Source: Candidatus Altimarinota bacterium
Lineage (GTDB): Bacteria > Patescibacteriota > Gracilibacteria > JAHISY01
Length of the DNA: 64,000 nucleotides
Direction of reading: 5' to 3'
Assembly (NCBI GenBank): GCA_021735425.1
Contig: JAIPGZ010000003.1
Coordinates: forward strand, 1-64,000
The position numbers and the translations under genes are program-made. How positions within the stretch are numbered: the stretch's first letter is position 1; the number at the start of each line of letters is the position of its first letter. A model generated the notes under the pieces. The model searched no databases. It was not told where the DNA came from and saw nothing but the letters and a program-made list of their open reading frames with translations. This document shows positions 5,164-18,780 of this stretch, one piece after another.

Positions 5164-6007
5164 GGGACTACCACTGTTAAGTGTTGGTGGTTGGTCTAGA
5201 GAATCGAGCAGTTAGATAAGCTACCCGCTCAGGATAGCTGAAGTTGAACTGAAAACAAATCTCTCTTAGAAACTCAGTAAGTTTTGGGTAACCACGGTAG
5301 GTGTGAACTGCCTTGGGTTTAGCATGTCCCCACACCCCTTCAATCCCATTTGTATGAATACCAGAACACTCCCTAGAGACAAATTCTCTAGCATGACAGA
5401 TAGTGAAGTGTTTGCGTGAGTATCTCAGTTCATTGTAGCCTCTCCATTCATCAGTAAAGGCAGAGGTGTTTTTATCTAGTAGATTGTCTACAAAATTTGT
5501 GAGAGTTGCAGAGTTACGATTTTGTAGTGGCGAGAGTTTAATTTGCTTTGTGATACGGCTTTTAGCTCCACCAATCCAGATGTGTTTCATAGTAGTCTCA
5601 TCTATTTCAGCCAGTCCAGAGAGTTTTTCTCCTGCAGTAGATGATGGAAGTATCTGACGAACCATACGACGGTAGTGTTGTCCGGTATTGGTATGTTTTT
5701 GGAAAAGCTTGGCAAGATCAGCACCACTAGGACAAGTACGAATGCTGACCAATTGTGCTAATAATCTCCACTGCTGATCAGTTATGCGAGTACGATGACG
5801 AATTGTTCCAGTGCGATTAGTAAAAGTTTTTCTACAGCTTAAACAACGATAACGAATTCGCTTTTGGGTTGTTTTACCCCAGCGAATTACATCGCCGATT
5901 ACGCCACAATGAGGGCAGGTTTTTTGTGCAGGCATACTTTTTGAAGGATTAGGGGCTTAAGTTAGCCCGATTCCTTAGTTTTACCAACACTTAACTGTTG
6001 TTGTCCC
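5164..6007 (-). mobile_element. Complete IS1595-type insertion sequence
   Basis: The 844-bp element is bounded by imperfect 24-bp inverted repeats (5164-5187 and 5984-6007, 21 of 24 identical, both starting GGGAC). It is flanked by a perfect 8-bp direct duplication AAAAGTAT (5156-5163 and 6008-6015). The 8-bp duplication, GG-starting ends and a zinc-ribbon/ISXO2-like transposase fit the IS1595 family. The single gene fills the element and its stop codon lies inside the left repeat. Intact ends and target duplication suggest recent insertion. It lies between the structured-leader gene and the cytochrome b5-like gene. Confidence 0.9.
5177..5935 (-). CDS. IS1595/ISXO2-like transposase
   Basis: The 252-residue enzyme starts with a zinc ribbon (CPHC at 7-10, CLSC at 31-34), followed by a helix-turn-helix-like segment and a DDE-type core: Asp112 in EIDETT, Asp162 in FTDEWRGY and Glu199 in HTNGIEGVW. 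The HTNxIEG motif is characteristic of ISXO2-type transposases. The spacing between the two Asp residues (50) is short for the family, so this is a compact variant. No frameshift or internal stop is present and both inverted repeats are intact, so it may be functional. Confidence 0.9.
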   Translation of the reverse strand: MPAQKTCPHCGVIGDVIRWGKTTQKRIRYRCLSCRKTFTNRTGTIRHRTRITDQQWRLLAQLVSIRTCPSGADLAKLFQKHTNTGQHYRRMVRQILPSSTAGEKLSGLAEIDETTMKHIWIGGAKSRITKQIKLSPLQNRNSATLTNFVDNLLDKNTSAFTDEWRGYNELRYSRKHFTICHAREFVSRECSGIHTNGIEGVWGHAKPKAVHTYRGYPKLTEFLREICFQFNFSYPERVAYLTARFSRPTTNT

Positions 6008-6110: not shown

Positions 6111-6461
6111 ATGCTTAAAAAAATATTTTCAATCGTTTTTTGTCTTCTGCTGGCGGCCTGCAACCAGACAGAAGCTGAGATAGAAAGTCTCACTCCTGGT
6201 GACTTGTCGGCAGCGAACTTCACGATGACAGAAGTTGCTGCGCATTCCGTGGAGACAGACTGCTGGATGGTGCTGCAAGGTAAAGTTTATGACATCACTA
6301 AGCATATCCCTAAGCATCCTGGAGGTAAGAAAATTATCGAAAGTTGCGGCAAAGACGTGACGGAGATTTTTTATCCTCCAGCCGATTCAGGTATTTCACG
6401 ACACATGCGCGTCGAAGATTCTTTACTGGCAGAATACTTCATCGGCAATCTAACCCCTTAA
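6111..6461 (+). CDS. Lipoprotein with cytochrome b5-like heme-binding domain
   Basis: Residues 1-17 form a lipoprotein signal peptide ending in a lipobox (LLAAC, lipidated Cys17). The rest matches a cytochrome b5 fold: CWMVLQGKVYDITKHIPKHPGG, with His69 of HPGG as one axial heme ligand and probably His98 (ISRHMR) as the other, then LLAEYFIGNL at the end as in the family. The protein would sit outside the membrane, tethered by lipid, and carry electrons. It is followed after 4 nt by a two-helix protein with a possible heme-binding His pair, so the two may form a small electron-transfer unit (inference). Confidence 0.85.
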   Translation: MLKKIFSIVFCLLLAACNQTEAEIESLTPGDLSAANFTMTEVAAHSVETDCWMVLQGKVYDITKHIPKHPGGKKIIESCGKDVTEIFYPPADSGISRHMRVEDSLLAEYFIGNLTP

Positions 6462-6700: not shown

Positions 6701-7339
6701 ATGGACAAGAGTAAAAATAATTCGAACAGTGCTGATACCTTGAAAGCGTACGAGAGGATTTACGCTGAGTCAGAGCAGGCTTACAGCTCACAGCCATTTT
6801 TTTTGGTAAAAAAAATTCATAAATATTTGCAGACTGGTTTGGTCGTGGACTTCGGAGCAGGTGAGGGGAGGAATAGTGTTTTTCTCGCAGAGCAGAGTTT
6901 CTTAGTAGAGGCGATTGATTTTGCCGCCGGGGCTGTCAAAAAGCTGGAAGAGAAAATCAAAAAAAAATCTTTAAACATACGAACGAAGAGAGCTGATCTC
7001 AGTCGGCTGAATTTGGCTGGTAAATTTCATGTAGGGGTTTGCACTTTCGTGCTGCACAATCTCTCAGCCACAGCAGCCAAAAAGTTTATCCTCAAAATGC
7101 AAAAGCACACCGAGATCGGAGGAGTGAATGTATTGGCTTGTTTCACAAAGCAGGGATATTTTTTTCGCAAAGACCCTAAGACTGGAAATTTCTTCCCCAG
7201 CCAGACTGAACTAAAAAAACTTTACACTGGCTGGAAAATCCATGAAATCAATACTAAAAAAATACGCTTGCGTCCGATAGATGCAGCAGGAAAACCGCTT
7301 TTTGGTGACTGCGTGGTGATGTTAGCGCAGAAGCTTTAG
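6701..7339 (+). CDS. Class I SAM-dependent methyltransferase (TehB-like)
   Basis: The 212-residue protein has a Rossmann-type SAM-binding motif I, VVDFGAGEGRNS (about 50-61), an acidic end of strand 2 (EAIDFA) and a motif IV-like segment (HVGVCTFVLHNL). The arrangement resembles TehB and small-molecule methyltransferases. The substrate is unknown. It is the last gene of a plus-strand trio with the cytochrome b5-like lipoprotein and the two-helix protein, and its 3' end overlaps the convergent radical SAM-like gene by 4 bp. Confidence 0.8.
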   Translation: MDKSKNNSNSADTLKAYERIYAESEQAYSSQPFFLVKKIHKYLQTGLVVDFGAGEGRNSVFLAEQSFLVEAIDFAAGAVKKLEEKIKKKSLNIRTKRADLSRLNLAGKFHVGVCTFVLHNLSATAAKKFILKMQKHTEIGGVNVLACFTKQGYFFRKDPKTGNFFPSQTELKKLYTGWKIHEINTKKIRLRPIDAAGKPLFGDCVVMLAQKL

Positions 7340-8097
7340 TTGTTTTTCTGTCTCGAAAAACAAGCTTGTTGCTTCAAGAGTTTAGGTAGAAGTTCTTTTT
7401 CGTACATTGCTCGTAGATCGAGATGATCTGTGAGCTGCGCGGTGAGTGGCAGGAAGCGACAGAGGCTGATGGTATTGCCATCTGGCTGAATCGTGAGATT
7501 CGTGAAGGGGCAATTGTCACACATTAGGTCGGCGTGGGAGTAGCTTGGTGAGGTCGAGAGAATCGCTTTAGTTTTTTCTGCCAAGGTTTTAGCAATTTTT
7601 TGATTGTCAGCCGCTTCGTTTTCTCGTATATAAAAAGCGAGCTTTACGGGGACTCGATTTTCACGATAAAAACGAATTGTTCGCTCAATGTTTGTTCGTA
7701 GCTCAGGATAGTCGAAGTAGACGTGGAGATTTACGACCACGCGGTCAGGTAAAGATTTTTTGGGTGGCAGGATTCCATTGCTGCGTAGAGTTGATCGGAC
7801 ACCCTTACCACGCAAGTAATAAAGTGCCTCGTCGACGTGCTTCCAAAGTGTCGGCTCACCACCACCGAAAGTTATCGAGCGGAGTTTCTGCAGATTGCTG
7901 ATTCTCTCGACAGCCCAGTGAAAGTTTTCGATTTTTAGTTCTGACCGAAATTTTTCTGAAAATTTAGATTTTAGTTTCGGAGCGATTTCTGGATTTAGCT
8001 GGTAAGTCGGGATGACCGAAATTCGTTCAAAATCAGCATAAGTAAAACCACTTACGCCACGTGCCTTTTTTAGTTTTTGGCTAATTTCTGAGTGCAT
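7336..8097 (-). CDS. Degenerate radical SAM homologue lacking the cluster cysteines
   Basis: This 253-residue protein aligns by eye with the active radical SAM enzyme at 15933-16790. VIPTYQLNPEIAPK stands where that enzyme has IVPTYACNLACSYC, ITFGGGEPTLW matches ITFIGGEPTIW, and LRSNGILPPK matches LLSNGMKLPK. The three CX3CX2C cysteines are replaced by Leu34, Ile38 and Lys41, so the SAM-cleaving [4Fe-4S] cluster cannot form in the usual way. The SAM-binding GGGEPT (78-83) remains, as does a C-terminal MCDNC/PDG/LC segment like the SPASM region of its paralogue. It starts 1 nt after the SLH protein stop, so it is translated with that operon. It may act as a scaffold or peptide-binding partner (inference). 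Confidence 0.75.
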   Translation of the reverse strand: MHSEISQKLKKARGVSGFTYADFERISVIPTYQLNPEIAPKLKSKFSEKFRSELKIENFHWAVERISNLQKLRSITFGGGEPTLWKHVDEALYYLRGKGVRSTLRSNGILPPKKSLPDRVVVNLHVYFDYPELRTNIERTIRFYRENRVPVKLAFYIRENEAADNQKIAKTLAEKTKAILSTSPSYSHADLMCDNCPFTNLTIQPDGNTISLCRFLPLTAQLTDHLDLRAMYEKELLPKLLKQQACFSRQKNN

Positions 8098-8098
8098 A

Positions 8099-10012
8099 CT
8101 ATTGAGCCCTTCTTACAGTTTTTTTCAAAATCTGCTTGGCCAGCGAGGCAATCTTAGCAATCTCGGCTCGGTTGATTTGGTCACTAGGTTTGAATTTACC
8201 ATCGGCGTAGCCAGCTACGATTTCTTGAGCATTGGCGAAATCTACAAACTTAGCAAACCAATCGCTGGATGAGACATCAGAAAAATTCGAGCTAGCTGAA
8301 TTGGGGATGTTTACTCCAGAGGCAGTGAGAATCATCTTCATCGCTTCAGCACGATTCACTACTCCACCTGGCTGGAAGCTGCCATCAGGATAACCGCCGA
8401 CAGCTGCGGCGTTTTTGGCAGCGGCGACATAGGGAGCGAACCAGGCGTTTTTGTCGACATCAGGGAAAGGATTCGTAGCGACGCTCGTCGGCACTTCGAG
8501 GTCAAAAAGCTCGACGACAATCTTGGCTATTTCAGCACGATTCAGGGAATTACCTGGTCGGTAAGTCTCATCTGGATAACCAGCAACCACTTCTTTTTCC
8601 ACTAGGTCTGCGACGAAAGGTGCGTACCAAGCATTCACATCGACATCCTTCAGCCCCCTTTGGAGTGCGTTTTTGGCTTCGACCTCAGCGACGACTCGGA
8701 GGTGCTCTGGATAATCTGCGATGTATTCTTCTAGTTCTACATCACTGGCTCCTCCATCGATTAGCGTTTTGAGTCTCCAGAATAATTTTACAGAATCTGT
8801 TTTGTTGGGCTCGGCGGCACCTTCTTCTGCCCCGATACTTACTGCCATATCTACAAATCTATCGATTTGATTATCGAGGTTATTGTCTCGAGCACTGGCG
8901 TCTAGACCGCTTTCTGCTAGAGAAATGCTGTCATTGTAAAAATTGACAATATTATAAAGGTCTTCGCTAGACATGTGAGATAGCCACAGATTAGTCACAT
9001 CAGATTGTCCTAGTTTCACCATCTCTTCCACGAGATAATAGCGAAGCCAAGGAATGTAAGAATATTCATTAATAATTTGATTGTTGAATGTAACTGGGCG
9101 GATGCCATAAACCTTTATTCTGCTGCCGTCTGTATTTATGTAGCCTTCGATTTTTACCTCGCCATCAGAGATAATTTCCTTTGCTATGTCTGACTTACCT
9201 TCGATTTTGGATTCTATCGCTGGGATGAATTTCGTGTAATAACTATTAGTGGCTTCAGCAAAAGCATTCATTAAGATGTAAGGATTGAAGTCAGTCCTGC
9301 TTGACTCTGGTGCTGCCATGATCATGTGCATGGTGTAGATTACTTTGGCGTAGTCTGCATCCATTTTGTCTTTTTCGATGATGATTGTTTTGAAGCTTTT
9401 CCCATCTTTGCTGATATTTGCGACATTTCCACTTACTCTCTGAGGATAGGAATAGTGGACGATGAGTCCGCTGTCTATGTCAGCAGGGGTGATTCCATCT
9501 TCTTTAATCTCCCTCAAAACTGCTTTGCACCACAGAAGCTCTCCATCATCGAGATCATAAGAGAATTCGACGTCAAACAAACTAGTAGTAGAGTTGTTTG
9601 TAGCACTGTCATTACCGAGATTAAGCAGCTCACTTTCTTTGGGAGTGCTGGCGGCTAGGGCTTCACCAAGTTGTAATTTGCGCTTGCGGAAAAGAGGATT
9701 CTTGAAATTAGTTTTTACAGTCGGGGGACCACTAGCAGATTCTTCTTCTATAAAAAGCGATTGATTTAAGCCTGAATAATTATCTGGCAGTAAAGAAAGA
9801 AGAGCTTCTTTTTCTGTAATTGCCAAATCATCAACTTGCTCTAGCAAGAGCGAGTAACAACTTGATTCCAAAGCATTTGATTGTGCAGCGGAAGTGGTAT
9901 CGCTGGTGATAGACACAACGAAAACAAAAACGGTAGCAATAGTCGGAATAAGTATTTTTTTAGTGGTCATAAATTTTAAGTTTAAGTTTTTTGAAATAAC
10001 GGATTTATCCAT
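8099..10012 (-). CDS. Secreted protein with three C-terminal SLH domains
   Basis: The 637-residue protein has a signal peptide (ILIPTIATVFVFVVSIT, cleavage near AAQSNA) and a roughly 400-residue domain of unknown type. Three SLH repeats lie at about 465-630, each with the pattern F/V-x-DV..W(F/Y)A..V.....VxGYPDGxFxPxxxxNRAE. SLH domains bind secondary cell-wall polymers or anchor S-layers at the surface. The start is uncertain: ATG at 10012 lies 6 nt after the Hint gene stop, while Met15 (9970) gives a shorter N-region; neither has a Shine-Dalgarno sequence. It lies in an operon between the Hint protein and the degenerate radical SAM protein. Confidence 0.85.
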   Translation of the reverse strand: MDKSVISKNLNLKFMTTKKILIPTIATVFVFVVSITSDTTSAAQSNALESSCYSLLLEQVDDLAITEKEALLSLLPDNYSGLNQSLFIEEESASGPPTVKTNFKNPLFRKRKLQLGEALAASTPKESELLNLGNDSATNNSTTSLFDVEFSYDLDDGELLWCKAVLREIKEDGITPADIDSGLIVHYSYPQRVSGNVANISKDGKSFKTIIIEKDKMDADYAKVIYTMHMIMAAPESSRTDFNPYILMNAFAEATNSYYTKFIPAIESKIEGKSDIAKEIISDGEVKIEGYINTDGSRIKVYGIRPVTFNNQIINEYSYIPWLRYYLVEEMVKLGQSDVTNLWLSHMSSEDLYNIVNFYNDSISLAESGLDASARDNNLDNQIDRFVDMAVSIGAEEGAAEPNKTDSVKLFWRLKTLIDGGASDVELEEYIADYPEHLRVVAEVEAKNALQRGLKDVDVNAWYAPFVADLVEKEVVAGYPDETYRPGNSLNRAEIAKIVVELFDLEVPTSVATNPFPDVDKNAWFAPYVAAAKNAAAVGGYPDGSFQPGGVVNRAEAMKMILTASGVNIPNSASSNFSDVSSSDWFAKFVDFANAQEIVAGYADGKFKPSDQINRAEIAKIASLAKQILKKTVRRAQ

Positions 10013-10018
10013 TGGTTG

Positions 10019-10789
10019 CTATCCATCATCATCACTATCATCATCGTCATCACCACAGTTGTGTACTACGAATCCTGCGCTGATGTAAGTGTGATCGCCG
10101 TCCAGCTGGAGGTCGTAGACAGTTTCTTCTTCGGGCCTTTCGAAAACGTGCTCTAGGGTCTCGACTTTCTCTTCTCCGTCTGCTGTCTTCAGGACATCTC
10201 CGATCTGGAGCTGAGAAGCTCCCAGGTCGGCGTTGCGCCCAGTCTGCTGGAGTAGCGCTAGATCACAAACTCGCCAGCTGCCATCTGCGGCGAGGAAAGG
10301 ATGATCACCAGTGACTTCGACTTTATCGTTGATTTTGAAAGTACCTCTAGCTCCGATTACTACCCTTTCATAATCTTTGACAGTATTGATGGTCTCGTCA
10401 TCGCCAATCACTTGTTCTCCGACTTCTACATTCTCTATATTTTTTTCGCTACCATCAGCCATTTTTACTTTTGTGCCTGCTACGAAACATGATGCATCAT
10501 CATCACCATCATCATCACCACTACTACTGCCATCAGGACAGTCACAGTCTGTGACGATTACTTGCCAGTTGGGATTATTGGTCCAAGTGTTGGGGTTAGG
10601 GACTGTGTGATATATCGATACTGCTTTCGCTCCTGGGATTAGAGTGCCTAGAGCTCTCTCGACTTGCGCCCAAAAGATAGAGTCACCTTGCGTGACGAAT
10701 GAAAAAGCTGCTGCTCCAGGTATGCTGCCAAGTAGACTAAAAAGAGCAATCTTGGCCGCTAGTTTTTTTTCAATCACTATTTTTGACAT
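10019..10789 (-). CDS. Secreted protein with a complete intein-like Hint domain and Asp-rich flanks
   Basis: Residues 1-30 look like a signal peptide or anchor. Residues 101-244 form a mini-intein-sized Hint domain. It starts at Cys101 (SCFVAGTKVKMADG), has block B VTGDHPF with Thr160/His163, and ends VVHN with His243-Asn244. The next residue is Cys245, a suitable +1 nucleophile, so all residues for protein splicing are present. The flanks are short and acidic: DDDGDDDAS before and CGDDDDDSDDDG after. Splicing would fuse two Asp-rich stretches into one secreted chain. No homing endonuclease is present. It lies in an operon with YbaB-like, SLH and degenerate radical SAM genes. Splicing versus cleavage cannot be decided from sequence. 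Confidence 0.85.
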   Translation of the reverse strand: MSKIVIEKKLAAKIALFSLLGSIPGAAAFSFVTQGDSIFWAQVERALGTLIPGAKAVSIYHTVPNPNTWTNNPNWQVIVTDCDCPDGSSSGDDDGDDDASCFVAGTKVKMADGSEKNIENVEVGEQVIGDDETINTVKDYERVVIGARGTFKINDKVEVTGDHPFLAADGSWRVCDLALLQQTGRNADLGASQLQIGDVLKTADGEEKVETLEHVFERPEEETVYDLQLDGDHTYISAGFVVHNCGDDDDDSDDDG

Positions 10790-10827: not shown

Positions 10828-11079
10828 TTATTTGATGAGTTTTTGAATTGCTTTGAGGTTACCAGCTTGGGCTTTTTTACTCGCACGGTTGAGGATACTC
10901 TTGAGGGATTTTAGCACTTCGGGTGTGATTTTTTTAGGCAGATCGATTTCGAGAAATTTGAGTTCACCGTTGACCACTACTTTGACTCCCTTGCTTTGCA
11001 CCTCGAAAATATTCGCTCTCAGGTCGTCTTGAGTGAGCTTGAGCTGACGAATTTGCTGGAAGGTTATTTGAGGATCCAT
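10828..11079 (-). CDS. YbaB/EbfC-like nucleoid-associated protein (weak match)
   Basis: The 83-residue protein has the layout of the YbaB/EbfC family: an N-terminal helix, a central VKVVVNGELKFLEIDLP hairpin resembling the family's VxVTVNGxxxVxxxxI, and a C-terminal amphipathic helix (EVLKSLKSILNRASKKAQ). Family members are usually about 100 residues and bind DNA as dimers. The match is by pattern only. It is the first gene of the minus-strand operon with the Hint, SLH and degenerate radical SAM genes, an unusual setting for a DNA-binding protein, so another role is possible. Confidence 0.5.
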   Translation of the reverse strand: MDPQITFQQIRQLKLTQDDLRANIFEVQSKGVKVVVNGELKFLEIDLPKKITPEVLKSLKSILNRASKKAQAGNLKAIQKLIK

Positions 11080-12940: not shown

Positions 12941-14572
12941 TTATGACTTCATTTTACGGAAAGCAAACAGCCGATTGTCATTAGCCAGAGCGAAGAAGAG
13001 CTTTTGTTTTGGTGAATAAGTGACTGCGTTGGTGATTCTTTCTGGGAAATACAATTTTCCAGAAATTTCATTGCTTTTTGGATTGATTTCATAGATTGCA
13101 CCGTCATTGCTGCCGAAATAAATTTTCCCTAGGATTTCACGAGGAGAAGACAGAATATTGCCGATGGCACGGATTTCTTTGAGGACTTTTCCCGTCTTGA
13201 GATTTATGACATACAGACGTTTGTCGCTCGAAGTCACATAAACTTTATTTCCTACGATTAGAGGAGTGGAGTAGATGATGTCTTCAGTCTGGACACTCCA
13301 ATTTTCTTTACCAGTGCCTAGATCTATAGAATAAATCTTCCCGTCATGACTGCCTGCGAGGACAGCATTATTTTTCAGATCGAAAGTCGGTCGATATTTG
13401 ATTGGACCTCCAGCCTGAAATTCCCAAATTTTGCGTCCAGTTTTTGCTTCGAATAAAAGCAGTGTGGCGTCATTCGTGCCAATCGCGACAATACCTTTTT
13501 CTTTTGAATAAGCTGGCGATCCATGTAGTAGTTCTTTGACGACGTATTCCCACACTTTTTCACCCGTCTGGATATCTAGGGCGAGGACACTACCTTTCTT
13601 GCCCCAGACTCCCTTCTCTATTCCTATGAAAAGCAGTCCGAGTTCGGGAGCTAGAGCAGGAGAGCTGCCGACCCAATCACCCTCGCCGAATTTCCAAATC
13701 AAGCTGCCATTTTTCGTATCGAGACAGTAGACATTGCCATCGTAGCTGCCGAAGAAAACTCGATCACGGTGAAGCGCAGGTGACGAGAAAATACCTTTTT
13801 TCTTTAAGTCTTTTCCGCACTGAAAGTACCAAGCGGGTTTGCCGGTTTTTTGATTCACTGCCCAAAAGATCGCAGCGTCACTACCAAAGTAAAGATTCTG
13901 ACTATCTAGTGCGGGTGTGGATTTTGGTACGACGAAGTAGTGACCCAGTTCAAAAGGTTGGAAATGCCAATCTTGCTTAAATTTAGACTGAGGAATTTTT
14001 TTGGTTTTGCCTCGCTCTAGTCCGAAATCAGCCAGTCGGTAGATGGAAAAAATTTTAATATTATTCTCCTTCAAAAAATTCTGACCCCTAACGTTGTAGT
14101 AATTCACAATCACAAAAACCTCTCGGATTTTTCGATTGATATCCTCTAGCGCGACCCGGACTTTATTTAGTGTGCCGCCAGCATTCATGAGATCATCTAC
14201 TACGACGATTGGATCATTTGTGATCTCACCTTCGATGAGATGTTGTCGACCATGATTTTTTCTTTCCTTCCTGACAAAGAAGCCGTTGACCTTGAGTCCT
14301 CGGTGGCGTCCTTCTAGGATCATCGCGGCGACGAGAGGGACGGATCCAGCCTCTAGTCCACCGACCTGAAAAGGCCATTTTTTTTCAAACTTATCCCAAA
14401 AAACTTTGGCGGATAATTCCAAGCCTTCCGCATCCATAAAAGTCCTACGGAGATCGACGAGCCACTTGCCCTGTTTTCCCTTAGTGCTCATTATTTTGTT
14501 GCCATTCTTGGACAGAATGATGGATTTCTCCATAATGATTTGGAGCAGGCGATCTTTTGATTTGAGAATCAT
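12941..14572 (-). CDS. Fusion of orotate phosphoribosyltransferase-like and PQQ-type propeller domains
   Basis: Residues about 35-190 resemble type I/OPRT phosphoribosyltransferases: GGLEAGSVPLVAAM, FFVRKERKNHG (compare the OPRT FVRKEAKDHG motif) and the PRPP loop VVVDDLMNAGGT (123-134). Residues about 215-540 are a beta-propeller of PQQ/BamB-like repeats (for example GSYDGNVYCLDTKNGSLIWKF-type blades, seven or so). I know of no common protein with this pairing. The ATG overlaps the upstream radical SAM stop as ATGA, which fixes the start and indicates translational coupling. The PRPP-dependent activity and what the propeller binds are unknown. Confidence 0.82.
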   Translation of the reverse strand: MILKSKDRLLQIIMEKSIILSKNGNKIMSTKGKQGKWLVDLRRTFMDAEGLELSAKVFWDKFEKKWPFQVGGLEAGSVPLVAAMILEGRHRGLKVNGFFVRKERKNHGRQHLIEGEITNDPIVVVDDLMNAGGTLNKVRVALEDINRKIREVFVIVNYYNVRGQNFLKENNIKIFSIYRLADFGLERGKTKKIPQSKFKQDWHFQPFELGHYFVVPKSTPALDSQNLYFGSDAAIFWAVNQKTGKPAWYFQCGKDLKKKGIFSSPALHRDRVFFGSYDGNVYCLDTKNGSLIWKFGEGDWVGSSPALAPELGLLFIGIEKGVWGKKGSVLALDIQTGEKVWEYVVKELLHGSPAYSKEKGIVAIGTNDATLLLFEAKTGRKIWEFQAGGPIKYRPTFDLKNNAVLAGSHDGKIYSIDLGTGKENWSVQTEDIIYSTPLIVGNKVYVTSSDKRLYVINLKTGKVLKEIRAIGNILSSPREILGKIYFGSNDGAIYEINPKSNEISGKLYFPERITNAVTYSPKQKLFFALANDNRLFAFRKMKS

Positions 14573-15936
14573 TTATCAAAGCAATATCCGTATTCTGAAA
14601 CTATTTTAAACTTTATTTTTTTAAATTTTTCTCTGGCTTGCATGGCCATTGCGCAGGCTTTTTTTATATCACGAGGCTGCCAATTTTTTGAGCTCTTGAT
14701 CAGTGGCGCGTTGCGGGGAAGTTTCTGTCCGATTTTGATTTTATATTCCGACTGCTTCAGGTCAAGCAATGTGTTGGGATTGAGATAAAGCTGCTTTATC
14801 TGGAGATAGTAGGGACTTAGAGAAGTCGCGAAGTCCAGTGTTTTTCCGAACCACTCTAGTGAATCTCCTGGTAAGCCAAAAATAAGATCAAGCTTGATTA
14901 CGATTTTGTGCTTTTTGCTTTCATGCAAAATCATCTCAAAAATTTTGAAGTCAAAGTTATTTTTTCGGCTCGCTAGATATTGGACATCAGGATTGATTGA
15001 CTGCAGTCCGATGTGTATGTGGTTTACATTTATTGCGCCAAATTTTGCGATTATTTTTTCATCTAATAATTCTGGTCTAGTCATGACTGACAAAGTAGGG
15101 GCTTTTTTTTTGTTTGGAAAGACTTTCTTATAAGCTTTGAGGAAATCATCGAGATGTTTTGGTGAAGCCATGAAGGTGTCGTCCAATACTGAAATTTTTT
15201 TCACGCCTTTTTCGCTCAAGTATTTCATCTCTGCCAAAACACGGTCAATCGGAAAGTTCCGTACTTCCGCAAACTTCACACTACGAAAACAGTAATGACA
15301 CCGATAGGGGCAGCCACGTGCAGTCGTGAGATAAAAGAAAGGATTTTTTTTGGAAGCAAGTTTGGACTTAATAAAATCATCGAATAAGCCTTCTAAATAA
15401 GGTGAGGGAATTTTGGAGAGATTGGTGATTAGATGGGCATCTTTATTTACGACAATCCTTTTGCTTTTACGGTAGCTTATGCCGCTTATTTTCGCTAAAT
15501 CTTTTTGCGTGCAATAGCCCAACAGGGGTACTTCAGCTTCGCCTCTCAGAATGAAATCAAGTTTGGGATTTTTTTCTAGCAGCTCGGTAGATCTTTTTTC
15601 GGCGATTTTGTAGCTTTGAAGACCGACTTTTATTTCTGGTTGGAGTTTTCTCAGCTTGGCAATAATCCTAAGTGTCACCCCTTCATAAAACATACCACTC
15701 CAGATAATGTTGTCGAGAAAAAAGATGACAGTGTCGGATTCGTGACCAGCGATGACGTAGGCATCTTTCGTGAAGTCACTAATTTTTTTCTCCCTACCCA
15801 CCACCACAGGCAAAATTTTCACCGTGGATTGAGGGGCATATTCCCGTAGGTAGGCTACTGCATAGCCCAGATCCAGAGGGGTGTAGTTGACGCCTTTGTG
15901 GTCGAAGTAAACGAGAAGGATTTTATTAGCTTTCAT
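14569..15936 (-). CDS. Radical SAM enzyme with B12-binding-type N-terminal domain
   Basis: The CX3CX2C motif is Cys209, Cys213, Cys216 (ARGCPYRCHYC). The N-terminal 190 residues follow the layout of the B12-binding-domain radical SAM class: PLDLGYAVAYLRE, then DFILRGEAEVP before the core. The cobalamin-ligand DxHxxG motif is not visible, so cobalamin may not be bound. The core continues with VLDDTFM and IKLDLIFGLPGDS. I place the start at ATG 15936, which overlaps the upstream TGA as ATGA; a further in-frame ATG at 15972 would force a 40-bp overlap. The substrate is unknown. Fourth gene of the coupled operon. Confidence 0.85.
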   Translation of the reverse strand: MKANKILLVYFDHKGVNYTPLDLGYAVAYLREYAPQSTVKILPVVVGREKKISDFTKDAYVIAGHESDTVIFFLDNIIWSGMFYEGVTLRIIAKLRKLQPEIKVGLQSYKIAEKRSTELLEKNPKLDFILRGEAEVPLLGYCTQKDLAKISGISYRKSKRIVVNKDAHLITNLSKIPSPYLEGLFDDFIKSKLASKKNPFFYLTTARGCPYRCHYCFRSVKFAEVRNFPIDRVLAEMKYLSEKGVKKISVLDDTFMASPKHLDDFLKAYKKVFPNKKKAPTLSVMTRPELLDEKIIAKFGAINVNHIHIGLQSINPDVQYLASRKNNFDFKIFEMILHESKKHKIVIKLDLIFGLPGDSLEWFGKTLDFATSLSPYYLQIKQLYLNPNTLLDLKQSEYKIKIGQKLPRNAPLIKSSKNWQPRDIKKACAMAMQAREKFKKIKFKIVSEYGYCFDK

Positions 15937-16790
15937 TTTTTGAGTTTCATCGAGAGACAGCCGCCCTGACATTGTTTTGGGAAAAATTCACAGCTCTCAC
16001 AAGCAGCTAGTAGGGGATCACAGCGTAGCTTGTCTACTACTTTCCCGAAATTCAAACAATTTTTCGCTGCTAGGTTGAGATCGACACAGGGCAAAAAAGA
16101 TCCATCTGGATTTATTACTACGGATCTTTTAGCAGGTTCACAACGAGAATACAGTCCACAATTTGTGCGTAAAAATTTCAATTGTTTTTCTGTAAAAAGA
16201 CAAAGTGGTACTGCACGATTGAGCGTGATTTTTTGTTTATTTTTTTTAACCAATTTAGCAAAATCAAATAGGACTTCCCCAAGTTTTTTATCCAAGAGAT
16301 AGGGGACTATCGGAGAAAAAGAAACTGAGCTGGCGTATTTTTTCGCCCAGTCGGCATATTTGTGCAGCTGAGTGGAAGAATCTTTCACTCCGAGGTTGAA
16401 GCGTAATCCAGCTGGAATTTTATGTTCGTGATATTTCGTGAGATTTTTTAAAATTTTTGGACATAGCTTAGGGTCGGTTAGATTTGTTCCATTGATCATC
16501 ACCATGTGCGGCAATACTTTTGGTAGTTTCATGCCATTCGAAAGAAGACCTACTTGCATGCCGAGATTTTGCGAAGCTTCAATGGCCTTATCAATGTGTG
16601 ACCAAATCGTAGGTTCACCGCCGATGAAAGTAATTTTCGACACTCCTTGTGTTACCAGCCAGTCTAATATTTTGCGAAATTTTCCCCAGCTCATTTGCGG
16701 GAACTTCCCACGGTATTTGCTAGCATAGCAATAACTACATGCGAGGTTGCAGGCATAGGTCGGGACGATATGGACACTTTTTAGTTTCAT
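15933..16790 (-). CDS. Radical SAM enzyme with SPASM-like C-terminus
   Basis: Cys14, Cys18 and Cys21 (TYACNLACSYC) form the SAM-binding cluster site and FIGGEPTIW the SAM-binding GGEP motif. The C-terminal third has a SPASM-like Cys set: NCGLYSRCEPAKR, INPDGSFLPC and CESCEFFPKQCQGGC, which would hold auxiliary Fe-S clusters used by peptide- or protein-modifying enzymes. The start is taken as ATG at 16790, overlapping the upstream TGA by one base; a TTG immediately before is possible. It is the closest relative in the window of the cysteine-less protein at 7336-8097. Confidence 0.85.
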   Translation of the reverse strand: MKLKSVHIVPTYACNLACSYCYASKYRGKFPQMSWGKFRKILDWLVTQGVSKITFIGGEPTIWSHIDKAIEASQNLGMQVGLLSNGMKLPKVLPHMVMINGTNLTDPKLCPKILKNLTKYHEHKIPAGLRFNLGVKDSSTQLHKYADWAKKYASSVSFSPIVPYLLDKKLGEVLFDFAKLVKKNKQKITLNRAVPLCLFTEKQLKFLRTNCGLYSRCEPAKRSVVINPDGSFLPCVDLNLAAKNCLNFGKVVDKLRCDPLLAACESCEFFPKQCQGGCLSMKLKK

Positions 16791-17752
16791 CAAAAAGGTG
16801 AGAGAGGAGGGTAGTCATAATTTTCCAAATACTCATTTTGAATTTTATTGCAGACTGGATTGAGCGCGCAGTTGGCACAGGTTTTTTTACTCCAAACTTC
16901 TTCTTGAAAAAGTCTTTGGCGATATCTTTTTCCTTTCCTCATACTTATCCTGAGCTCATGTGGCCAAGGGCTAGTTTGATGAATCACCTGGGGTAAATCT
17001 TGCCAATCCTTGAAATAGCAAAATGGTAAATTAAAAAGAGTTATTTTTATTTTAGAATTAGCTAAGATAATTTTTAGAGATTTTTTTACTGTTTCGATAA
17101 CTTCAGGCTGGCCCAACGGAACAACTTTTTGTTTTTGACCCTCGTTCATCGATGTGCCGAGATAAAGACCGCGAACTACAATCGCGGCTCCGTAGTTGAT
17201 TTTTTTAGTAACGAATTTTACCAACTTTGGCAGTATTTTTAAGTTGTCCTTGGTTATCGCGATGATTACCACTAGCTTAATCTGATTTTTTTGAGAAAAA
17301 TTAATGGCATTTTGTATTCCTGCAATCTTTAGTTTTTCGATTTTTGTTTTCGCTGGCCAGTGATCTACATCGCTCAGCGACAACGCTAACTTCTTTCTTT
17401 TACGAGGATATTTATTAAATAATTGATTGAGCTTGGAAGTGAAATCTTTTTTGACAAATCTAAGTGAATTTGTATTGAGGGAGACCTGCACACGAGTGGG
17501 TTCCTGACTCAGGAGAAAGTCCATGATTTCCCAAAATTCTGGGTGTAGAGTGGGTTCTCCTCCGGAGAGAATCACCTGAGAAATATTCCACTTTTTATAG
17601 GCGAATTGATATCGGTTGATGACCTCCTTGAGAGAATATTCAGGAGCACGATTTAATAAAGCTCGATTAAAGCAAAATTTACAGTTGCTGTTGCAACGAT
17701 AGGTAGTATTCAGCACTAGGGTGGCGAAATCGAAATCTGCGCCTTTCTTCAT
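16790..17752 (-). CDS. Radical SAM enzyme with short auxiliary cysteine cluster
   Basis: Cys20, Cys24 and Cys27 (YRCNSNCKFCF) and ILSGGEPTLHPEF identify a radical SAM core. The C-terminus ends in KTCANCALNPVC, a possible truncated SPASM/Twitch auxiliary cluster site. The start is placed at ATG 17752 because it overlaps the upstream stop as ATGA; an in-frame ATG 9 nt earlier is less likely. Second gene of the operon. Substrate unknown. Confidence 0.84.
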   Translation of the reverse strand: MKKGADFDFATLVLNTTYRCNSNCKFCFNRALLNRAPEYSLKEVINRYQFAYKKWNISQVILSGGEPTLHPEFWEIMDFLLSQEPTRVQVSLNTNSLRFVKKDFTSKLNQLFNKYPRKRKKLALSLSDVDHWPAKTKIEKLKIAGIQNAINFSQKNQIKLVVIIAITKDNLKILPKLVKFVTKKINYGAAIVVRGLYLGTSMNEGQKQKVVPLGQPEVIETVKKSLKIILANSKIKITLFNLPFCYFKDWQDLPQVIHQTSPWPHELRISMRKGKRYRQRLFQEEVWSKKTCANCALNPVCNKIQNEYLENYDYPPLSPF

Positions 17753-18780
17753 TTCCAACATTGGGGATCTTTAGCGAAAAAATTTCCAGTCACGGCTGCA
17801 GAGATACAACTAGCTCCACCTTTGCATTTTTCAAAAACGCTACACTTTGGGCACTCTTTGTCTCTTGGCATATTTGTTACAAGCTTTTTGTAATCGTTTT
17901 CGTAAATCTTATTTAGGGTCTGCTTTTTTATGTTACCAATTTTATTGGGAAAGAGGCGACAAGGATAAACATCGCCATTTGGCATGATGGTGATAATGCT
18001 CATTCTCCTGACACCACAGCTGTGAAAGTTTCCACTGGGCCATTGTGTGTACTTTAGTCCACTCATGCAGGTGTTGGTTTTGAAAACTCCATTCCCATTT
18101 TTTAGTCGATACTTTTGATTTAGTTTTTCGACTTTGATGTAAAAATCACGTAACTCTCTGGGCTTTAGCATCATCGCTATTTCTTTTTTGCCACCGCCGA
18201 TTGGCACGAATCTTCTCAGTGTCATGCGAACATCGTAGATCAATAATAAGTCAACTAGCTCCAAAACTTGCGGGTAATTCATGCGTGAAATCGTAGCTGC
18301 GAGATGCACTGGAATTTCATTTTGTTTGACCAGACTGACCGCTGCCAAGATTTTTTCGAAAGACCCCTTGCCACGAATTTCATCGTTGATTTCCTCTGGG
18401 CCCTCGATACTGATTTGTATTCCGCTCACTATCGGTGCGCGTTTTTTCAATGCTTGTAAAAAGTTTTTAGTTAGCAGGGAACCATTTGTGAGAAGTGTGC
18501 AGTGTTTGAAATATTTTTTGTATTGTGAGATGTATTCCAAAAAATCAAGTAAGTCTTGACGCAAGAGGGGCTCTCCGCCAGTTAAATTCAGTCGACCCTG
18601 CGCGCCTGTTTTTTTCAACAGTGCGATGTATTCATCAAAAACTCGTTTCAAGGCATCTAGGTGCAATTCCTCATTTTCGTAAGTTTCTGCATAACAATGC
18701 TTGCAACGAAAATTACATCTATCTGTGAGGTGCCATTGCAGCGTTAGAGATTTTGGATGATTTAGGGTGGTGAGAGACAC
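17749..18780 (-). CDS. Radical SAM/SPASM enzyme, first gene of the operon
   Basis: Cys22, Cys26 and Cys29 (DRCNFRCKHCY) and NLTGGEPLLR mark the core. The C-terminal part is a canonical SPASM domain: SCGVRR, IMPNGDVYPCRLF, ECPKCSVFEKCKGGASC and a final Cys (DPQCWK). SPASM enzymes such as PqqE, AnSME and ranthipeptide maturases modify peptides or proteins, so a peptide or protein substrate is likely but not shown. It begins a run of five genes joined by 1-4 bp overlaps. Its promoter presumably lies in 18781-18863. Confidence 0.88.
   Translation of the reverse strand: MSLTTLNHPKSLTLQWHLTDRCNFRCKHCYAETYENEELHLDALKRVFDEYIALLKKTGAQGRLNLTGGEPLLRQDLLDFLEYISQYKKYFKHCTLLTNGSLLTKNFLQALKKRAPIVSGIQISIEGPEEINDEIRGKGSFEKILAAVSLVKQNEIPVHLAATISRMNYPQVLELVDLLLIYDVRMTLRRFVPIGGGKKEIAMMLKPRELRDFYIKVEKLNQKYRLKNGNGVFKTNTCMSGLKYTQWPSGNFHSCGVRRMSIITIMPNGDVYPCRLFPNKIGNIKKQTLNKIYENDYKKLVTNMPRDKECPKCSVFEKCKGGASCISAAVTGNFFAKDPQCWK

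Follow-up and report, generated by a model that had tools for sequence, protein, structure and literature searches.

The window, a 64,000-nucleotide stretch of Candidatus Altimarinota DNA, harbors an ORF (10019–10789, −) for a 256-aa exported protein that contains a Hint domain, as recognized from its translation and from Pfam and NCBIfam searches. On its residues and relatives, this domain is an A-type-BIL-like (bacterial intein-like) Hint carrying an intein-type +1 Cys, and it probably works as an intein of the BIL type. Its BIL-like kin, host and fold, taken together with the +1 residue of an intein, make class 1 splicing of a mini-intein of BIL ancestry, which would join two acidic stretches into one tail, the likeliest reading, held with moderate confidence.

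Domain architecture and fold

Class 1 inteins possess Cys/Ser at position 1, the block B motif TxxH, a terminal His-Asn, and Cys/Ser/Thr at position +1. Translation of the ORF revealed C101, T160-G-D-H163, H243-N244, and C245, exactly as the first-pass annotation had listed them. The N-part (residues 1–100; 10490–10789, −) consists of a probable signal peptide and a conserved region up to a DCDC motif, followed by SSSGDDDGDDDAS. The Hint domain (residues 101–244; 10058–10489, −) extends over 144 residues from C101 to N244, and the C-flank (residues 245–256; 10022–10057, −) contains the +1 Cys and the acidic tail CGDDDDDSDDDG. The Asp-rich stretches on both sides of the Hint are encoded by GAT runs, in agreement with the earlier description. 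The signal peptide was called by eye, and the charged start and hydrophobic stretch at the N-terminus were also present in Hint-less relatives; the host is a small exported protein with a probable signal peptide, which supports the secretion proposed previously.

Pfam analysis of the 256-aa protein identified Hom_end_hint (2e-10, above the cut-off) and Intein_splicing (5e-8, just under the cut-off), and the NCBIfam model intein_Cterm matched above its cut-off (4.5e-7). The Hint assignment of residues 101–244 is far above chance. No endonuclease domain was found in the Hint with Pfam or NCBIfam, and a domain of 144 residues is too small for one; the first-pass description of a mini domain was correct, and an endonuclease-bearing intein was ruled out as there is no room for it. 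The predicted model of the Hint was confident (10-residue mean pLDDT of about 83–98 across the domain). Its top match among solved folds was the Tetrahymena BUBL1 BIL2 domain 6y75 (Z 20.9, 1.8 Å across 139 residues), and the Clostridium thermocellum BIL domain 2lwy gave Z 17.6. After the BIL domains, the model matched the mini-inteins gp41-1 (6qaz), Npu DnaB (4o1r), and Mtu RecA (3igd) as well as the Hedgehog autoprocessing domain (1at0, Z 16.1); the gp41-1 match (Z 17.2–17.4 across 122–123 residues) identifies the Hint fold. The residues, the Pfam and NCBIfam matches and the modeled fold all support the splicing-competent Hint suggested by the first-pass annotation.

BIL domains occupy variable stretches of proteins that are not conserved (PMC7765530), mostly cleave, and are defined by the absence of a +1 nucleophile (PMC4031507, PMC7664689). 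The window Hint resembles A-type BIL domains, its best fold matches, in size, in its C-terminal His-Asn, and in its location, a variable segment of an exported protein that is not conserved, but differs from them in possessing C245. With class 1 mini-inteins it shares the full catalytic set including the +1 Cys, the lack of an endonuclease, and the existence of host relatives without the insertion; however, its host is small, poorly conserved, and exported, its nearest Hint relatives are BIL-like, and its C-flank is only 12 residues long. The Hedgehog domain and the PT-HINT domains of polymorphic toxins have the same fold and, as in the window, belong to exported proteins, but the window Hint has neither the sterol-recognition region of the former nor the downstream toxin domain of the latter. 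A polymorphic-toxin reading was ruled out, as only the 12-residue flank follows the Hint and the PT-HINT match in Pfam was weak and below the cut-off.

The host protein and its gene neighborhood

Inteins usually, though not strictly, occupy a conserved position within a conserved protein. The host described here deviates from this, as the first-pass annotation had remarked: a host profile built from the first three members (the window protein, the relative in genome G005, and the first copy in genome G015) found convincing members in only 3 of 353 class genomes, namely, these three, and their tails differ. A search with residues 1–100 showed that the N-part occurs without a Hint in both G005 and G015. 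The relative in G005, which belongs to the same family, is 46% identical, 107 aa long, and ends in DCDCPPPPPPVDNTGGGGGGADGDS; that in G015, of the same class, is 114 aa long and ends in DCDCNCRWINDDCGDDDGDDDDGA. A second G015 copy has a poly-Pro tail reaching the contig end, the sequence beyond lying off the contig. As other genomes encode the host protein with no Hint, the Hint looks like an insertion. The acidic C-flank is likewise ascribed to the host gene and not to the Hint module, because Hint-less host copies exist, one of them with an Asp tail.

In the first G015 copy, the final 12 residues, CGDDDGDDDDGA, are similar to the C-extein predicted here, CGDDDDDSDDDG, and share its Cys. The likeness is suggestive only, given that the tails are of low complexity and that the DNA of the G015 tail is closer to the window N-flank, from which it differs once in 27 bases, than to the C-flank. 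At the DNA level, the GAT repeats around the empty site align in more than one way, giving more than one possible insertion point. Two origins fit: the Hint may have entered a single Asp tail, or it may have arrived with a duplication of the tail.

The gene is placed directly upstream of an SLH-domain secreted protein (8099–10012, −), and a 41% identical protein directly follows the Hint-less relative in G005. Directly upstream is a YbaB-like small protein (10828–11079, −), with a 39% identical counterpart before the Hint-less relative in G015. Farther upstream are a phosphoribosyltransferase/propeller gene and four radical-SAM genes (12941–18780, −), four of these five with counterparts before the G015 relative; an esterase-like gene also lies upstream on the same strand. 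In all, five counterparts of the window upstream genes (35, 45, 33, 39, and 39% identity) precede the small protein on G015 contig C41. Since this upstream radical-SAM operon is common to the window and the G015 relative, the host is placed, from gene order, as the small exported protein of a radical-SAM cassette. On the G015 side, the shared cassette (several radical-SAM genes, the phosphoribosyltransferase-propeller, the YbaB-like protein, and the small exported DCDC protein) is positioned at L094:365–5986 (+). One window radical-SAM protein contains a SPASM domain, its likeness to peptide maturases falling below family cut-offs. From gene order alone, the small protein may be a radical-SAM substrate.

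Other genes close to the locus encode a radical-SAM-like protein (7336–8097, −) that matches only from about residue 63, shows no CxxxCxxC motif on visual inspection, and may be a non-catalytic partner; an IS1595-type transposase (5177–5935, −); and a small lipoprotein-like ORF (6111–6461, +) that by eye resembles a cytochrome b5-type domain (HPGG motif).

Hint relatives and the +1 residue

The Hint was compared within a set of 56 Hint domains obtained from searches of 353 class and 379 phylum genomes. Relatives of the same class recode TGA, which suggests Gracilibacteria within the Patescibacteria. The window genome harbors three further Hints, including the nearest relative, L002, which is 55% identical across the domain and also carries Cys at +1. 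The L002 Hint lies at the C-terminal end of another secreted protein and is followed by just CQN. At +1, the set had Lys in 16 domains, Asp in 14, Glu in eight, Ala in four, Ser in three, Cys, Asn, and Gln in two each, and Val in one; four domains were without a recognized His-Asn, one of these being cut off by a contig end. Within this set, Cys at +1 was confined to the window Hint and L002. In a quick tree, these two were sisters (SH-aLRT 97) nested in a 14-row set (SH-aLRT 99) of Hints from secreted proteins, with K in nine rows, C in two, S and V in one each, and one row without His-Asn, the prevailing Lys being in line with the missing +1 nucleophile of BIL domains; most inner branches were weak, and no direction of +1 change is claimed from it. 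The first-pass annotation had taken altered terminal residues or a missing C-terminal flank in homologues as arguments against splicing, and both points are only partly borne out. Cys1, TxxH, and Asn show little or no variation in the alignment, but the +1 nucleophile is often absent (mostly Lys) and L006 has lost His-Asn. Similarly, the tails of L010 and L002 amount to 1–3 residues, yet one Hint-less host copy has an Asp tail. The Asp-Hint-Asp layout, for which a search had been suggested, does not characterize the Hint family.

The window and L002 Hints are 60, 76, and 38% identical at the three codon positions, and silent change is saturated, so dN/dS is unusable for this pair; the active site has thus persisted through saturated silent change. 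The GC content of the two Hints (48.6 and 32.4%, respectively) differs mutually and from the surroundings, as expected of captured modules. No close relatives of the window Hint were found in phages, IMG/VR, or genome_contigs (the last two searched with peptide patterns), and plasmid matches were just distant polymorphic-toxin HINTs. A Hint-less homologue bearing the L002 tail was not found, the L002 paralogue having a different C-terminus. No report of inteins in Patescibacteria was found among the literature matches listed.

In the window genome, the genes of two proteins begin identically (100% over the first 130 bases at the 5′ end; L002:1–889, L113:1–679, and the end of L121), but the C-termini of the proteins differ, one of them being a Hint. 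The assembly break falls in the shared repeat, and the pair sits just ahead of tuf- and rpoB-like genes. The other two Hints of the window genome lie in tandem in a single ORF, L003 (G000:C28:1959–2954, −), both with Lys at +1. In many Patescibacteria, alpha-2-macroglobulin-like proteins also contain a Hint, placed after the bait-region domain and before the A2M domain. In L013:961–2280, the order is A2M_BRD (325–461), Hint (about 501–632), A2M (647–735), and then TED, and the same A2M-Hint stretch was observed in L011, L015, L031, L032, L034, L039, L040, L041, L043, L051, and L054. In 12 aligned A2M Hints, Cys1, TxxH, and His-Asn were invariant and +1 was D, E, Q, or A. The confidence of an A2M-Hint structure model was too low to place the Hint, and the terms tried retrieved no literature pairing "Hint domain" with "macroglobulin".

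Proposed splicing and alternative outcomes

The proposed model draws on the residues, the fold, the Hint-less host relatives, and the conserved neighbors, all seen in the sequence. A small exported protein of the radical-SAM cassette would carry a mini-intein of BIL ancestry in its tail. A thioester would form at Cys101, aided by T160/H163, the acyl group would pass to Cys245, and Asn244 would cyclize with the aid of His243. This would release the 144-residue Hint and leave the product ...GDDDGDDDAS-CGDDDDDSDDDG, which would measure about 112 residues with its signal peptide still attached. The occurrence of this reaction, its order relative to export, and any role of the acidic tail, such as the cation binding that the first-pass annotation considered possible, are inferences. 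Splicing is favored because all the class 1 residues are present, because the fold matches both BIL domains and mini-inteins, and because the host persists without the Hint, with the same neighbors, in G005 and G015. The resemblance of the Hint-less tail CGDDDGDDDDGA to the predicted C-extein and the retention of the active site in a pair of Hints whose silent sites are saturated point the same way. According to reviews, BIL domains splice when a +1 Cys is added to them (PMC4031507, PMC7664689). Against splicing, most Hint relatives are without a +1 nucleophile, the tails are of low complexity with the G015 tail DNA nearer to the N-flank, and the sister L002 has so short a tail that the +1 Cys is not generally for joining long exteins.

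BIL-style self-cleavage is the main rival, a tenable but less probable reading in which the Hint acts in C-terminal processing and frees the N-part, Asn cyclization sheds the short tail, and the +1 Cys is incidental. The N-part would be freed by hydrolysis or by transfer of its thioester to a different amine or hydroxyl, an attachment of the Hedgehog kind. BIL domains, the nearest solved folds, mostly cleave (PMC4031507, PMC7664689), 16 of the 56 domains have Lys at +1, and L002, L010, and L007 have tails of just 1–6 residues past His-Asn. Judging from L002 and from relatives such as L010, in which a single residue follows the retained His-Asn, the family plainly accepts cleavage as an outcome. 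Nevertheless, the +1 Cys is retained in both the window Hint and L002 despite saturated silent sites, the acidic tail that follows the Hint is similar to that of a Hint-less relative, and attachment has no known acceptor. Of the first-pass proposal of a BIL domain used for maturation or attachment, the BIL kinship holds in view of 6y75 and 2lwy, whereas attachment figures only within this rival. An inactive domain, i.e., a captured module staying as a folded C-terminal domain, is unlikely and is given very little weight: the loss of His-Asn in L006 and a GC content unlike the surroundings, as for captured DNA, would fit it, but a complete active site is kept at 55% identity to the sister, and the catalytic positions hardly vary across the aligned set.

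Class 1 splicing could be extended to a picture in which a BIL-derived intein interrupts a radical-SAM-modified exported peptide precursor (RiPP-like), splicing being a maturation, perhaps timing, step; this extension is speculative and rather improbable. The +1 nucleophile whose laboratory restoration makes BIL domains splice (PMC4031507, PMC7664689) occurs naturally here, in a pair of BIL-like Hints whose clade usually has Lys at this position, and Hint-less forms of the host are present. If splicing is true, the window Hint would be a natural intermediate between BIL domains and inteins, residing in a small exported protein and not in a conserved enzyme.
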